The notes beneath the pieces were generated by a model. That model ran no database searches. It was not told the origin of the DNA and saw only the letters and a program-made list of their open reading frames with translations. A program made the translations under genes and the position numbers. From Limosilactobacillus reuteri (GTDB lineage: Bacteria > Bacillota > Bacilli > Lactobacillales > Lactobacillaceae), in assembly GCF_034259105.1 (NCBI RefSeq), contig NZ_CP139478.1, positions 62,001 to 126,000 of the forward strand: a stretch of 64,000 nucleotides of DNA, in the 5' to 3' direction. Positions 43,221 to 47,931 of the stretch are shown here, piece by piece. Position 1 is the stretch's first letter. Each line of letters opens with the position of its first letter.

Positions 43221-43477
43221 ATTATTTCTCCGTTCTATTAATTCAATGTGTTTAATATTTTAGCACATCTCCAAATACCACTGGATAAATATGTCGGGGG
43301 ATGAAAAATCGCGTAATTAATTTTTTAAAATGATAACTTAGCCAAACTTATAACCAATTGTTGCAGAAATAGTTAATTAAGCGTGCATATTACTAATAAT
43401 ATGTTTTTTGATTGAGTAAAATATAGTAGAATAACAATGTGAAATGTTGCATAAATAGCTTAAAGGAAGTGACACGT

Positions 43478-44050
43478 TTGAAAATTGCTGCAATTGCCGG
43501 GTCAAATGCTAATCATTCATACAACCGGATGTTATTAGAATTTATTGCCCGTCATTTTAGTGATGATGATATTGATGTGATTGATATTCGTCAAGTGCCA
43601 ATGTTTAATGAAAATTATAAGGGAAAGATTCCTGAGGTTGTTGCTGATATTGATCGTCGTGTTTCAAGCGCCGATGCTGTTATTATCGCCAGCCCAGAAT
43701 ATAACCACTCTGTTACCTCTGCTTTGAAGAGTGTAATCGAATGGCTTTCCTATGAAGTTCACCCCTTAGAAAATAAGCCGGTCATGATCATCGGGGCATC
43801 TACCTATGATCAAGGCTCATCCCGTTCCCAAGTTCAATTACGAGACATCTTAATTTCACCAGGTGTTAATGCTTATATTTTCCAAAACGAAGAGTTCTTT
43901 ATGAGTGATGCTGCTCATATCATTGATAAAGATGGCGACATTACTAACGAAACGACTATTCATTTCTTAGAAAAATGTATGCGTGAATTCAAACACTATG
44001 CTAAGGCAATCAATCGCATGGTTACTGAAAAGAAGGAGGCGAAGAAGTAA
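43478..44050 (+). CDS. NAD(P)H-dependent FMN reductase (flavodoxin-like)
   Basis: The 190-residue flavodoxin-fold protein has the FMN-phosphate loop AGSNANHSYNRML near 7-19 and the SPEYNHSVTSALKSVIEWLSY motif near 70-90 of the NADPH-dependent FMN reductase family. TTG 43478 is the likely start: AAAGGA lies at about 43462-43468 and translation then begins MKIAAIAGSNA, aligned with the paralog that follows. GTG 43469 or 43439 is less likely. It overlaps the next gene by one base and would supply reduced flavin or electrons to the flavinylated neighbour. Confidence 0.88.
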   Translation: MKIAAIAGSNANHSYNRMLLEFIARHFSDDDIDVIDIRQVPMFNENYKGKIPEVVADIDRRVSSADAVIIASPEYNHSVTSALKSVIEWLSYEVHPLENKPVMIIGASTYDQGSSRSQVQLRDILISPGVNAYIFQNEEFFMSDAAHIIDKDGDITNETTIHFLEKCMREFKHYAKAINRMVTEKKEAKK

Positions 44051-45297
44051 TGAAAATTCTTGCTCTAGTTGGAACTAATGCTGATTTTTCCTATAACCGG
44101 ATTTTACTTTGCTACATGAAAAAGCACTTCCGCCAAATGGCTGATATTGAAATTGCTGAGATTAGCCAATTACCGCCATTTAGCGTTGACACTCCTCTTT
44201 CTGAACAAACAGAGGTATGGAAGTTAAAGCAAAAAGTTAAGGCTGCAGACGGAGTTATTTTCTCAACTCCTGAATATGACCATGGGATTCCAGCGGCCTT
44301 AAAGAGTACAGTAGAATGGCTTTCTTACAAGACTGATGTATTAAAACACAAGCCAGTCATGGTTGTCGGGGTATCTTATGGACGCCAAGCTTCTGCAAGA
44401 TCTCAAGTTCAAATGCGTCAAATTCTGGTTTCTCCTGATTGTGACGCTAACCTATTACCAGGAAATGAAGTTCTGATTGGTAATGCTAGTCATTCCTTCT
44501 CCAAAGACGGTCGGTTAATTAATGCCGAAGCACGAGATAACCTTGAAGACTGCTTTACTCATTTTGTGGAATACATTCAAATCTTTGAAAATGCAAATAA
44601 GGAGGGACTGGATATGTCCGTTAAACAACCAACGATCAGTGAAGCATACATTAACTTCCCAACTGGTCGGTTGACATTAAAAGAAGTTCAACAAATCTTC
44701 AGTACAATTCCATTTGAAATTGACCTAATCGACAGTACTGACCATTTCGCATGGTTCTCTGATAAGCCAAACCGGGAACACGTTCGTAATGTAGCTTCCC
44801 TTGGTGAAACTGTTCAAGAATGTCATCCACCATTGGCTGTACCTGCTGTAATGAGCATCATTAATAGTTTCCGCGAAGGTAAGAAAGATGTTGTTACCCG
44901 TCCATTATGGATGAATGGTCACCGTTCATTGATCCAATACTACGCTTTACGTGATGTTAATGGTCATTACCTTGGAACCATCGAATTTACTGGTAGTGTA
45001 GAATACATTCTTAACCTCTTCGAAAATGGAGCATGGAGTACTGATGGTAACACTGGTGCATCTAAGCATGAAGATGCTAATGACAACAGTGAAGAAGCTG
45101 ACAGCGTTGATGCATCAACAGGTGCTTCAGAATCAAGTGATGATAACACCGACAATGCTAGTGAAGTGGTTGCAACCCCAGCACCAGCAGCAAACGACGA
45201 TACTGATGCGGACGCTACAACAGGCGTATCAGATGCAGGCAGCGTAGACGCAAATGATGATGAGGCAGATGCTACAACAGGTGCATCCGAAAACTAG
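44050..45297 (+). CDS. FMN reductase-PAS fusion with a multi-flavinylation-motif tail
   Basis: This 415-residue protein has three parts. Residues 1-185 are a flavodoxin-fold FMN reductase (LVGTNADFSYNRIL, TPEYDHGIPAALKSTVEWLSY). Residues about 195-325 are a PAS domain of the DUF438/PAS_10 type (ECHPPLAVPAVMSI, IQYYALRDVNGHYLGTIEF). Residues 330-415 form an acidic, low-complexity tail with four repeats of D-x-x-T-G-A/V-S: DGNTGAS (332-338), DASTGAS (354-360), DATTGVS (388-394), DATTGAS (407-413). This is the pattern to which ApbE attaches FMN, and apbE is the next gene. No signal peptide or membrane segment is seen, so it should be cytosolic. A strong ribosome binding site before Met189 may give a second product. 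Confidence 0.85.
   Translation: MKILALVGTNADFSYNRILLCYMKKHFRQMADIEIAEISQLPPFSVDTPLSEQTEVWKLKQKVKAADGVIFSTPEYDHGIPAALKSTVEWLSYKTDVLKHKPVMVVGVSYGRQASARSQVQMRQILVSPDCDANLLPGNEVLIGNASHSFSKDGRLINAEARDNLEDCFTHFVEYIQIFENANKEGLDMSVKQPTISEAYINFPTGRLTLKEVQQIFSTIPFEIDLIDSTDHFAWFSDKPNREHVRNVASLGETVQECHPPLAVPAVMSIINSFREGKKDVVTRPLWMNGHRSLIQYYALRDVNGHYLGTIEFTGSVEYILNLFENGAWSTDGNTGASKHEDANDNSEEADSVDASTGASESSDDNTDNASEVVATPAPAANDDTDADATTGVSDAGSVDANDDEADATTGASEN
44599..44616 (+). promoter_or_regulatory. Internal ribosome binding site and ATG inside the fusion gene
   Basis: AAGGAGG at 44599-44605 is followed after 8 bases by ATG 44614 (Met189), exactly at the boundary between the reductase and PAS domains. Translation here would give a 227-residue PAS-tail protein in addition to the full-length fusion. 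Confidence 0.6.
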
Positions 45298-45299
45298 TT

Positions 45300-46232
45300 A
45301 TGAATAATGAATTGATGGCGCAGCGGCATGTGATGACTCATCACGCTCTCGGAACTCGCATAAATTTAACGATTTTTGGCAACAAATATTTTTCATTGTT
45401 AAAGAAATCAATGGACCTAATTGACCACTATGAGGACCAATTAACGGTTAACCGTAATGAATCAGAAGTGATGTCGGTGAACCATGGTGCAGGGAAAACT
45501 CCGAAAATGGTATCGCCAACGACTTTTGACCTCATTGAGCTGGCAGTGAAATATAGTCGTGAAAACTTTGGCTTTAACGCTTTGATTGGCCCGTTAGTAA
45601 AATTATGGAAAATCGGTTTTGCAGGGGCGCACGTGCCAAGTGATGCTGAGATCAAAGAGCGGTTGAAGTTGATCGACCCTTATAAAGTATTGCTGAACCG
45701 AGAAGCACGGACGGTATATTTAGAAGAGCCGGGGATGGAATTAGACCTTGGCGGAATTGCGAAGGGCTATATTGCGGACCGTATTCGGGATCTTTGGATT
45801 GAAGCTGGAGTTCCCGCGGGAATTATCGACTTAGGGGGAAATCTCTTATTTGTTGGTAAGTCGCCACGGCGGGATGATGGGCAGTGGATCATCGGTGTGC
45901 AGGATCCGCAATTACATCGTGGTGAAAATCTGGCAACTGTTCGCGAGCCTGCTTGTTCGGCAGTTACATCTGGGATTTATGAACGATTTTTGATCAAAAA
46001 TGGCCGTCGTTATCACCATTTACTAGATCCTCTGACTGGATACCCGTTAGAGACTGATTTGAGCAGCGTGACTGTTTTTACTGATCAATCGGTAATGGGT
46101 GAAATTGAGGCTAAGCGACTTTTCTTCAATGGCGAACCAATTGCGGGCTGGGAAACGCGTCCTGACAACCGTGGTGCTATCTTTATTCATAATGATGAAT
46201 CAATGGTAAATGTTGGGCTGAATAAAAATTGA
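45300..46232 (+). CDS. apbE: FAD:protein FMN transferase, cytosolic ApbE
   Basis: The 310-residue enzyme transfers FMN from FAD to a Ser/Thr of target proteins. Family motifs are present: LGTRINLTIFG near 15, LDLGGIAKGYIADRI near 155-170, GIIDLGGNLLFVGKSP near 180 and the metal/active-site region AVTSGIYERF with HHLLDPLTGYPL near 220-245. The usual lipobox or signal peptide of exported ApbE proteins is absent, so it acts in the cytosol. It starts two bases after the gene encoding four D-x-x-T-G-A/V-S motifs, its obvious substrate. An IS element begins 14 bases after its stop, and the IS transposase frame overlaps its 3' end on the other strand; the gene itself looks intact. Confidence 0.92.
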   Translation: MNNELMAQRHVMTHHALGTRINLTIFGNKYFSLLKKSMDLIDHYEDQLTVNRNESEVMSVNHGAGKTPKMVSPTTFDLIELAVKYSRENFGFNALIGPLVKLWKIGFAGAHVPSDAEIKERLKLIDPYKVLLNREARTVYLEEPGMELDLGGIAKGYIADRIRDLWIEAGVPAGIIDLGGNLLFVGKSPRRDDGQWIIGVQDPQLHRGENLATVREPACSAVTSGIYERFLIKNGRRYHHLLDPLTGYPLETDLSSVTVFTDQSVMGEIEAKRLFFNGEPIAGWETRPDNRGAIFIHNDESMVNVGLNKN

Positions 46233-47931
46233 TTTCATTTAAGTGAGGCTGGGAATTAACTATTAAATTCCTTCCTCTGAATATTAAAATCCGAACCATA
46301 ATTTTTGATTTTCCAGAAATTATGGTTCGGATTTTTCCTTTTTCAATTAATTTTGTCCCTGCTTGAGCTACTAACTTTCCCAATTTTGTTAAATTCATAG
46401 CCATTAGTGTAAATCCGGTGTCATTTTCCACAGCGCGTTGCCCACGTAAATGTGTTCGGCGTACGCCAAAATCCCTCTTCATGTGACCGAAAACGGGTTC
46501 AACGTCGTACTTACGTCGACGATAAATTGCCTTACCTTCGTCACTTGAGAGGGTTGCTTTAACTTTAGCTTTATAGTAATTCCAAGTTGGATTAACTTGC
46601 ATATAGCGTTGACGTCCACTTGGTGTTTTCGCTAATTGATCTAATTGTACTGATAATTGATGTTTATCTGCCCGATAAAGTTTAAAATCACGTTTAAATC
46701 CATATTTATCAATTCTTCGACTGTAACGATAAAAACTAAAACGAACTCCTAGATGGTCAATGTAATAATCATCTTCGGCATTATATTGCCAGTTTTGTGA
46801 TTTAGTTGGATCAGTTTTGTATTTTCGTTTCTGTTCCTTTTGGTAAGTCGTATATGGAATAACAGGCTGTTTTTCAAACTGATCAATAATTGTCGTGTAA
46901 TTATATTCACTACCATACCCTGCATCAGCCACGATATGATCAAAGAAATCTAAAGAATGAAATTGAGCAAGAAATGGTACTAATGTTCTAGTATCTGTCG
47001 GATTAGAATATAAGGCATAATCAAGAACAAATTGATTGTGGGTAGCGATTTGTAAGTTGTATCCAGGTTTCAATTCTCGGTTTTTCATTGGATCTTCTTT
47101 CATACACATGAATGTGGCATCATGATCTGTTTTTGAAAAGCTATTGCGGCCCTTAAAAATATCTTCTGCTTCTTCATACTTATTAGCACGAGGTATAAAG
47201 TCTTCTTTTAATTGTCGACGAATCTTTTTTAAGAAACGGCGTCGTCGTTTCTTAACTGAACCACCCTTGATTACTTTAGGTTCTTGAGCTATTTCTTCAT
47301 TCAATTCACTGATTTTATCATCAATATTTTCAGCCATAAGAGCCATTCCATTAGCGGTTTCCACTAGTTCTGGACTCATCGCTTTAACTACCCGTTTTTC
47401 GACTAAATCTTCGTAAAGTTTGATTGTTTTTTCTTTTAATTTTGCATGATATTTTTCAACAGCTCGACGCCAAGTAAATGAATACTTATTGGCATCTGCC
47501 TCAAGCTTTGTCCCATCAATAAAGAAAGCATCACTTTGAATTAGTCCGTGATCCTTTAATGCCATCGTAAAGTACACAAAAGAACGTTTGATTAAATTAT
47601 TAGCGTGTTGACTTTGGCGAAAATTATTAATTGTATGGTAACTATAGGTATGATCACGTGCCAACCAACGCATTGGTAAATTCTCTTCAAGCATCAACTC
47701 AATTTTCCGACCAGAATAAGTTTGACGTGAATAGGCAAATAATAAAATTTTAAGCATAATCGCTGGATGAGAAAGTGGGCGACCGGTAGTCGCTACTTTG
47801 TCATCCAATAAAATTTCTTGTGGAATCGAATCTACAAAAGCATCAATCATACGTACAATATGTCTTGATGGAACATTATAATCATAATTTAGTACGAATT
47901 CTGTTTGCCCTGTGATATAATTTTGATACAT
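46183..47931 (-). CDS. IS1182-family transposase
   Basis: The 582-residue transposase has the N-terminal DUF772-like domain (FVDSIPQEILLDDKVATTGRPLSHPAIMLKI), a DDE core (FFIDGTKLEADANKYSF; HIVADAGYGSEYN; YDVEPVFGHMKRDFGVRR) and a charged linker near 195-245. ATG 47931 follows AGAGGAGCG. The frame has no stop within the element: it reads through the left inverted repeat at 46246 and ends at 46183 inside the antisense of apbE, so about 20 C-terminal residues come from host sequence. Confidence 0.9.
   Translation of the reverse strand: MYQNYITGQTEFVLNYDYNVPSRHIVRMIDAFVDSIPQEILLDDKVATTGRPLSHPAIMLKILLFAYSRQTYSGRKIELMLEENLPMRWLARDHTYSYHTINNFRQSQHANNLIKRSFVYFTMALKDHGLIQSDAFFIDGTKLEADANKYSFTWRRAVEKYHAKLKEKTIKLYEDLVEKRVVKAMSPELVETANGMALMAENIDDKISELNEEIAQEPKVIKGGSVKKRRRRFLKKIRRQLKEDFIPRANKYEEAEDIFKGRNSFSKTDHDATFMCMKEDPMKNRELKPGYNLQIATHNQFVLDYALYSNPTDTRTLVPFLAQFHSLDFFDHIVADAGYGSEYNYTTIIDQFEKQPVIPYTTYQKEQKRKYKTDPTKSQNWQYNAEDDYYIDHLGVRFSFYRYSRRIDKYGFKRDFKLYRADKHQLSVQLDQLAKTPSGRQRYMQVNPTWNYYKAKVKATLSSDEGKAIYRRRKYDVEPVFGHMKRDFGVRRTHLRGQRAVENDTGFTLMAMNLTKLGKLVAQAGTKLIEKGKIRTIISGKSKIMVRILIFRGRNLIVNSQPHLNEINFYSAQHLPLIHHYE

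Follow-up and report, generated by a model that had tools for sequence, protein, structure and literature searches.

Introduction

Protein flavinylation has mostly been studied outside the cytosol. What, then, would a cytosolic flavin reductase do with a row of covalently attached flavins? The question is raised by a three-gene unit of Limosilactobacillus reuteri at positions 43478–46232 of the window, i.e. the whole 64,000-nucleotide stretch that was analysed (contig NZ_CP139478.1 of RefSeq assembly GCF_034259105.1, positions 62,001 to 126,000 of the forward strand). The unit encodes a flavin mononucleotide (FMN) reductase subunit, a second FMN reductase domain fused to a PAS domain and to a disordered tail with four predicted flavinylation motifs (here named the tail protein), and ApbE, the FAD:protein FMN transferase.

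In its sequence features the unit belongs with a published class of flavinylated FMN_red proteins, of which it is a multi-site variant, and it is likely the counterpart of FRedA/FRedB of Lactobacillus johnsonii and the associated PAS protein. In the reading that we favour, which in our estimate holds with marginally better than even probability, it would constitute a soluble, cytosolic, NADH-driven module, in which electrons would pass from NADH through an FMN_red heterodimer to the tail flavins and from there to a fumarate-reductase-like enzyme, with O2 (giving H2O2) as a side or alternative acceptor. This reading draws on gene content, motif conservation, ApbE linkage, and the fusions and gene runs with fumarate-reductase-like enzymes that occur in relatives.

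Organization of the locus

The genes and the domains of their products are the following:

43478..44050, plus strand, FMN_red1, FRedA-like NAD(P)H:FMN reductase subunit, 190 amino acids (aa); PF03358, 3.9e-35
44050..45297, plus strand, FMN_red2-PAS-tail protein (FRedB-like domain, PAS_10 and disordered tail), 415 aa
44050..44487, plus strand, FMN_red domain of the tail protein, residues 1-146; PF03358, 7.7e-33
44689..44988, plus strand, PAS_10 domain of the tail protein, residues 214-313; PF13596, 1.5e-14; fold matches 3cax and 2qkp
45037..45294, plus strand, acidic disordered tail, residues 330-415 (86 aa); net charge -23; predicted local distance difference test score (pLDDT) <50
45300..46232, plus strand, apbE (FAD:protein FMN transferase), 310 aa; PF02424, 3e-67; best PDB match 7esa, 1.7e-58

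The first gene starts with a TTG codon (an in-frame GTG at 43439 would yield 203 aa), its stop codon overlaps the ATG of the tail-protein gene by one base (TAATG), and two bases separate the stop codon of the latter from the ATG of apbE. An earlier sequence-only reading of this DNA had given the same coordinates, domains (FMN_red; FMN_red-PAS_10-tail; ApbE), motif positions and two-base gap, and its description of an 86-residue acidic tail is borne out by the net charge of residues 330-415 and an isoelectric point of 4.05. Its claim that the tail protein and ApbE are free of membrane helices and signal peptides agrees with the Kyte-Doolittle profiles of all three products, in which no candidate membrane segment or hydrophobic N-terminus was seen (no signal-peptide program was run), the top 19-mers scoring 0.82 in FMN_red1, 1.01 in the tail protein and 1.37 in ApbE. 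No FMN_bind (PF04205) domain was detected in the tail protein by a Pfam scan up to an E-value of 1. In the AlphaFold2 model of this protein (mean pLDDT 70.2, predicted template modelling score 0.48), which has no bearing on tail docking, the folded regions find FMN reductases and PAS_10 structures as their structural matches, and residues 330-415 fall below a pLDDT of 50.

Motifs of the tail and their conservation

Three of the four tail sites are canonical D-x-x-[ST]-G-A-[ST] motifs and one is a Val variant, each being a predicted flavinylation site:

45043..45063, plus strand, motif-like site 1, DGNTGAS, residue 332
45109..45129, plus strand, motif-like site 2, DASTGAS, residue 354
45211..45231, plus strand, motif-like site 3, DATTGVS (Val variant), residue 388
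45268..45288, plus strand, motif-like site 4, DATTGAS, residue 407

Motifs were counted with a strict pattern, D-x-x-[ST]-G-[AV]-[ST], and with a looser one that admits S/T/A at position 4, G/S at position 5 and A/V/T/S at position 6. Against the four motifs of the real tail, 200,000 shuffles of its residues gave a mean of 0.019 strict motifs, with two motifs in 18 shuffles and three or more in none, and the looser pattern reached four in 6 of the 200,000. Among 50 non-overlapping open reading frames (ORFs) of at least 100 aa in the window, the tail protein alone carries the strict motif. The four copies are spelt with differing codons and are therefore not a fresh DNA duplication.

Conservation was assessed within the nearest clade, in 20 of its 21 members, leaving aside a protein with five motifs. 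Pairwise identity amounted to 88% for motif residues, 33, 29 and 65% for the linkers and 81% for the first 320 residues; none of the sites has been lost, and 59% of identical motif residues are encoded by different codons. Part of the motif conservation is built in, since the search pattern fixes positions 1 and 7 and restricts positions 4-6. A chance or low-complexity repeat, which was also considered, is ruled out by the shuffles, the codon differences and the conservation of motifs relative to linkers.

Up to four tail Ser residues may be flavinylated by the adjacent ApbE, as judged from the motif, from the neighbouring gene and from a published Lactococcus case, in which two FMN_red tails were flavinylated on co-expression and lost the modification when the predicted site was changed to Ala (PMC11334425). 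In another protein, an Ala-to-Val change at motif position 6 leaves approximately half of the flavinylation (PMC12052999), so that motif 3 may be the weaker site here.

ApbE and its distribution alongside the tail protein

The window ApbE scores 227.4 bits with the Pfam model, whose cut-off is 25.6. Its best PDB match, 7esa, is presumably FmnB of Listeria, the numbering of which fits 7esa at an offset of 20; S224 and H240 align with S257 and H273 of the FmnB triad, and the window enzyme is assumed to be an active flavin transferase. It is the only ApbE of the host genome. Exported electron transfer, considered as another role for the unit, is unsupported, this sole ApbE having no hydrophobic N-terminus.

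In a sample of 33 Limosilactobacillus genomes, host included, the tail protein is present in 28, all of which also possess ApbE (linked in 23, elsewhere in 5); ApbE occurs in two of the five genomes without a tail protein. The three ApbE-less genomes are all devoid of the tail protein, which has a probability of 0.0018 at random, although missing sequence may contribute, these genomes being 93, 75 and 66% complete. Any FMN_bind protein was found in 13 of the 33, and 16 of the 20 genomes without one have both the tail protein and ApbE; in these 16, a search that covered FMN_bind proteins and the tail consequently leaves the tail as the sole ApbE target of a known type. The claim that the unit holds a soluble, multi-site candidate ApbE target on an FMN reductase is supported by these data, given that the motifs persist as the linkers drift and that ApbE accompanies every tail-bearing Limosilactobacillus genome. 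A small FMN_bind protein as a general partner of the tail was rejected, because it occurs in only 8 of the 33 genomes; one of these eight, G015 (75% complete), is without ApbE.

In two Limosilactobacillus genomes, 86 and 88% complete, ApbE was found (L274:5962-6909, minus strand, and L275:782-1699, plus strand), with no tail protein in the genome and no FMN_red/PAS gene in the stretch read.

At the level of the order, the tail protein was found in 9 of 23 genomes, with apbE in the same gene run in all nine; their gene order, apbE - FMN_red1 - tail protein, is unlike that of the window. Across 36 relative loci, apbE is on the same strand in 31. The best 80 loci from named genomes, of which there are at least 80, are nearly all from Bacilli (Limosilactobacillus, Secundilactobacillus, Companilactobacillus, Tetragenococcus, Oceanobacillus, Lederbergia, Enterococcus and others), with one metagenome-assembled genome labelled Bifidobacteriaceae. 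PAS_10 is encoded in 79 of these 80 loci, and 58 have a same-strand apbE in the stretch that was fetched. Loose motifs number one in 3 proteins, two in 23, three in 24, four in 28, and five and six in one each, these counts covering the whole protein so that hits outside the tail or overlapping may be included. Streptococcus is among the named sources of tail-protein homologues in the matches listed, and in Streptococcus agalactiae, the transcripts of three genes whose locus tags are consecutive, an apbE and two FMN reductase genes, shift together (-2.09, -2.11 and -2.12 fold), the last of the three genes being listed at 3.55 in the proteome table (PMC6224512).

Downstream of apbE, a terminator-like hairpin was found by a consensus scan, which found none between the three genes:

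46288..46333, plus strand, terminator-like hairpin 3' of apbE; consensus scan only, two overlapping hits versus 2.4 expected

Directly behind apbE lies an ORF of 582 aa resembling, by eye, an IS1182-type transposase (46183-47931, minus strand), which overlaps the last 50 bases of apbE on the opposite strand. The C-terminus of ApbE at this overlap has an identical counterpart in L032.

A putative FRedA/FRedB-type heterodimer with a PAS partner

Singly inactive and jointly active, FRedA and FRedB of L. johnsonii form a heterodimer with two FMN sites (KD ~2 uM), which is NADH-specific and produces H2O2 (PMC4500961). The same work describes LjPAS, a 28-kDa PAS protein that slows FRedA/FRedB assembly, and noted in 2015 that its relatives in other lactobacilli are fused to FMN reductase. 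The words ApbE, covalent and flavinyl are absent from that paper.

As reference we used the FRedA/FRedB pair of a Lactobacillus-type genome, L266, taken as FRed type. FMN_red1 is 43.6% identical to the FRedA-like protein of L266 and the FMN_red2 part of the tail protein 50% identical to the FRedB-like one, in each case the better match of the two. Judged from these relatives, FMN_red1 most likely pairs with the FMN_red2 domain in one heterodimer of the FRedA/FRedB type, a picture that takes the place of the two separate reductases which the sequence-only reading had charging the tail (PMC4500961).

Six genomes that share a genus, which homologue names suggest to be Lactobacillus, contain FRedA-FRedB pairs at 0.9-2.1 kb from the only ApbE match of the genome and on the same strand. 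The two genes are 12 bases apart in L266, with 40% identity between FRedA and FRedB, and 11 bases apart in two others. Five of the six genomes also encode a separate PAS protein of 244-246 aa. That of L239 (4006-4740, minus strand; 28.0 kDa), a locus in the genome of L266, has DATTGAT, DTATGAS and DTSSGAS at its end, and three motif-like sites are present in each of the stand-alone PAS proteins of L239, L240, L241, L242 and L243, the third being degenerate in L243. These proteins appear to be of the LjPAS type, an assignment made from the 28.0-kDa mass, the 12-base spacing, the 40% FRedA-FRedB identity and the genus names of homologues. In the Lactobacillus-type loci L264-L267, a tyrosine-phosphatase-like gene and apbE come after the FRedA-FRedB pair, a MupG-like (6-phospho-N-acetylmuramidase) gene intervening in three of the four (families tested in L264).

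The PAS domain bears on an explanation that we consider improbable, namely that tail flavins and PAS domain report the NADH/O2 state and control reductase assembly, with no bulk electron transfer. A regulatory role fits the presence of the domain itself, the halved initial rate upon preincubation of LjPAS with FRedB, and an LjPAS transcript that responds to aeration, falling ~3-fold in aerated cells according to the Results of PMC4500961, while its abstract states repression under anaerobic conditions. Two to six covalent flavins are, however, not needed by a sensor; the tail is present and the PAS domain absent in L055 and L058; and the L096 fusion described below sets the tail between the reductase and fumarate-reductase-like domains. 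Gating by the PAS domain, as proposed in the sequence-only reading, draws indirect support from the preincubation result, but no significant effect of LjPAS was seen once the heterodimer had formed (PMC4500961).

Fumarate-reductase-like enzymes as candidate acceptors

The relatives of the unit suggest a tail acting as carrier for a fumarate-reductase-like enzyme. In Secundilactobacillus collinoides (L096), a single protein of 1020 aa comprises FMN_red (residues 1-149), PAS_10 (217-315), the motif tail, FMN_bind (402-474) and FAD_binding_2 (504-991) and ends in one more motif-like site, apbE being located nearby on the opposite strand. In L250, genes for fumarase C (Pfam), flavocytochrome c (NCBIfam, over cut-off), FMN_red1 and FMN_red2-PAS-tail are on one strand. 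L268 and L269, which belong to one genus, share a run in which a one-motif FMN_red gene is followed by apbE, a motif-less PAS gene, a gene that looks LysR-like by eye, a fumarase-like gene and flavocytochrome c, the families having been tested in L268, where TIGR00979 was the best model for the fumarase-like gene, under its cut-off. In Liquorilactobacillus (L103 and L104), an FMN_red-FAD_binding_2-FMN_bind protein is encoded directly before FMN_red-PAS-tail and apbE, and the arrangement of L107 appears to be the same by profile. Some sister species of the host carry a FAD_binding_2 gene ~2-3 kb upstream of the unit, separated from it by a gene resembling (by eye) an rRNA methyltransferase. Overall, a FAD_binding_2 ORF is present in 16 of the best 80 named loci (in two of them, L096 and L142, within the FMN_red ORF itself) and in 6 of the 36 relative loci, some loci being the same genome in both sets.

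One such FAD_binding_2 gene near the unit is broken into two ORFs (L035:11541-12997, minus strand).

The host encodes one full-length FAD_binding_2 protein of 464 aa, over the cut-off of the flavocytochrome c model and without an FMN_bind domain, whose gene neighbours are a fumarase-like gene, a lactate/malate dehydrogenase and a DASS transporter, as well as one FMN_bind protein of 97 aa carrying DGITGAS. What S. collinoides carries as one fusion is thus present in the host as separate, unlinked proteins. Between the fumarase-like and flavocytochrome-c genes of the host lies a transposase-like ORF, IS30-like by eye (L171:8550-9680, minus strand).

In the mechanism that we infer for the host, which extends to heterodimer, flavinylation, electron acceptor and the direction of flow, FMN_red1 would pair with the FMN_red2 domain as a FRedA/FRedB-type heterodimer and oxidise NADH using bound FMN, and ApbE would attach FMN to the final Ser in as many as four D-x-x-T-G-A/V-S motifs. 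The tethered flavins could then swing, ferrying electrons from the reductase site to a partner flavoenzyme, for which the 464-aa flavocytochrome-c/fumarate-reductase-like protein, encoded near a fumarase-like gene, is the best host candidate, electrons perhaps being routed via the 97-aa FMN_bind protein. O2 may also accept electrons, giving H2O2, and the PAS domain probably sets subunit or partner contact. The electron wire of the sequence-only reading is a conjecture; the relatives suggest a carrier for a fumarate-reductase-like enzyme.

A different use of the same parts, which we hold to be rather unlikely, is that the tail flavins only occupy the two FMN sites of the FMN_red dimer, so that the reductase stays loaded, the unit being an NADH oxidase/flavin reductase with O2 (giving H2O2) or a small molecule as acceptor, and extra motifs raising local flavin. 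Docking of a tail flavin in the FMN_red site has been proposed from models (PMC11334425), FRedA/FRedB forms H2O2, with two FMN bound to each heterodimer (PMC4500961), and the unit occurs in six order-level genomes without a FAD_binding_2 match. Up to five or six motifs nevertheless exceed two sites, LjPAS-like and other PAS-tail proteins have motifs without an FMN_red domain, and the fusion and gene runs with fumarate-reductase-like genes speak for the carrier reading.

Several observations weigh against that carrier reading. Purified L. johnsonii FRedA/FRedB reduces free flavin and yields H2O2 without any tail (PMC4500961). The reductase gene of the host is unlinked to the three-gene unit, and where a reductase gene does lie nearby, the loci are in part closely related, several of them (e.g. 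Companilactobacillus) having it on the opposite strand. Six of the nine order-level genomes with the tail protein gave no FAD_binding_2 match at 1e-15, and the idea that every host has a fumarate-reductase-like partner was rejected on this ground. FAD_binding_2 is present in 32 of the 33 Limosilactobacillus genomes, including all three ApbE-less ones, so that co-occurrence there is uninformative. In the window ApbE, Glu268 replaces the catalytic D301 of FmnB, and Lys is found where Thr is expected, four residues past the D301 position. Finally, the conservation check proposed with the sequence-only reading, although largely favourable to it, showed D-x-x-A-[GS]-A-S as the predominant or sole form in 7 of 36 relative tails (L055-L061). 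This variant keeps the last Ser and was recovered with the looser motif (position 4 S/T/A, position 5 G/S); with position 4 limited to S/T, none of the seven has two motifs, and L055 has one canonical site.

The last three of these points, the two ApbE substitutions and the variant motifs, would also suit a tail that is hardly or not at all flavinylated, ApbE serving other proteins (the 97-aa FMN_bind protein of the host being another canonical target) and the motifs being kept for, e.g., binding or phosphorylation. We regard this as very improbable. The 16 genus members noted above have the tail protein and ApbE and no FMN_bind protein, and apbE begins only two bases behind the tail gene. Moreover, Glu occupies the D301 position in 28 of 28 aligned cytosolic ApbEs and is hence a feature of the clade and not damage to the window copy; at the position four residues further on, these enzymes have Lys (15/28), Thr (8/28) or Ser (5/28).

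Relation to known systems

FMN_red proteins with C-terminal extensions bearing one to two motifs, encoded next to apbE, have been reported (PMC11334425). The flavinylated proteins of Lactococcus lactis and L. taiwanensis share with the window an FMN_red domain, an unstructured motif-bearing C-terminal extension, a neighbouring apbE and an origin in Firmicutes; they differ in having one to two motifs, compared with four in the window and 1-6 in its relatives (loose pattern, best 80 loci). Section 6 of PMC11334425, which describes them, names neither a heterodimer partner nor an electron acceptor. The L. johnsonii system is alike in its two consecutive FMN_red genes and PAS_10 protein (PMC4500961), whereas in the window the PAS domain is fused and followed by a four-motif tail, with apbE adjoining. 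Given the Lactococcus tails and the PAS-FMN reductase fusions noted in 2015, the view that the arrangement had not been described no longer holds. The phrase 'PAS domain' is absent from PMC11334425. A literature search of titles and abstract openings found no publication joining flavinylated FMN_red tails with FRedA/FRedB-LjPAS.

The ene-reductase part of HcrB, a protein of Lactiplantibacillus plantarum, is a FAD_binding_2 domain; none is present on the window proteins, and in L103 and L104 the neighbour of the tail gene encodes one. HcrA and HcrB are likewise a pair of FMN_red-type (COG0431) proteins, proposed to act as a heterodimer in delivering NADH electrons to the ene-reductase (PMC10295242); the ene-reductase domain is on HcrB itself, in place of which the window has PAS and tail. 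The FMN_red-FAD_binding_2-FMN_bind arrangement of L103 and L104 resembles HcrAB (PMC10295242). The cytoplasmic ApbE and soluble fumarate reductase of Klebsiella pneumoniae offer another parallel, with a signal-less ApbE and a soluble cytoplasmic reductase as target, but there the flavin site and the catalytic domain are on one protein (PMC12052999), whereas the window tail is separate from the candidate reductase. Several covalent flavins on one protein have been proposed for multi-flavinylated multi-FMN_bind proteins (PMC8238504), unlike which the tail has no FMN_bind domain, bare 7-residue motifs and no export signal seen. In its sequence features, the unit combines the flavinylated FMN_red class with FRedA/FRedB, and it does not belong with the multi-FMN_bind carriers or the HcrAB enzymes.

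Other partners and biological implications

PAS-tail proteins without FMN_red also occur beside other enzymes. In three loci of one genus, genes for a thiamine pyrophosphate (TPP) enzyme, ApbE and a PAS-tail protein are contiguous on one strand:

L246:1227-4747, TPP enzyme - apbE - PAS-tail run
L249:4451-8024, minus strand, TPP enzyme - apbE - PAS-tail run
L252:3688-7279, minus strand, TPP enzyme - apbE - PAS-tail run

The two TPP enzymes tested with NCBIfam are pyruvate oxidase SpxB (TIGR02720, 836 and 828 bits versus 638). In L272 (4890-8452), two PAS-tail proteins with five motifs, and with three plus one overlapping hit, flank apbE, and the run adjoins an FMN_dh protein resembling lactate oxidase, under the cut-off of that model. 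Such loci suggest that PAS-tail proteins may be a portable flavin-carrier module. A wider proposal, which we put forward as speculative and somewhat improbable, is that cytosolic disordered multi-flavin carriers, with short ApbE motifs on tails anchored by PAS domains, could form a soluble electron hub in Bacilli, connecting NADH (through FRedA/FRedB), SpxB or lactate-oxidase-like enzymes with fumarate-reductase-like enzymes. If this were true, pyruvate oxidase could, for example, operate in the absence of oxygen, and LjPAS would act as a carrier and not only as a regulator.

If the carrier reading of the unit is true, the tail would represent a widespread cytosolic, flexible-tail multi-flavin carrier, a soluble analogue of carriers of the multiheme or multi-FMN_bind kind. 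In commensal lactobacilli, the flavin reductase that forms H2O2 would then have to be reread, in view of the predicted flavinylation sites of LjPAS-like proteins and of published assays that were apparently performed without the cognate ApbE. It also raises a testable question, namely what donates electrons to those soluble fumarate-reductase-like enzymes of lactic acid bacteria that have no donor domain of their own.

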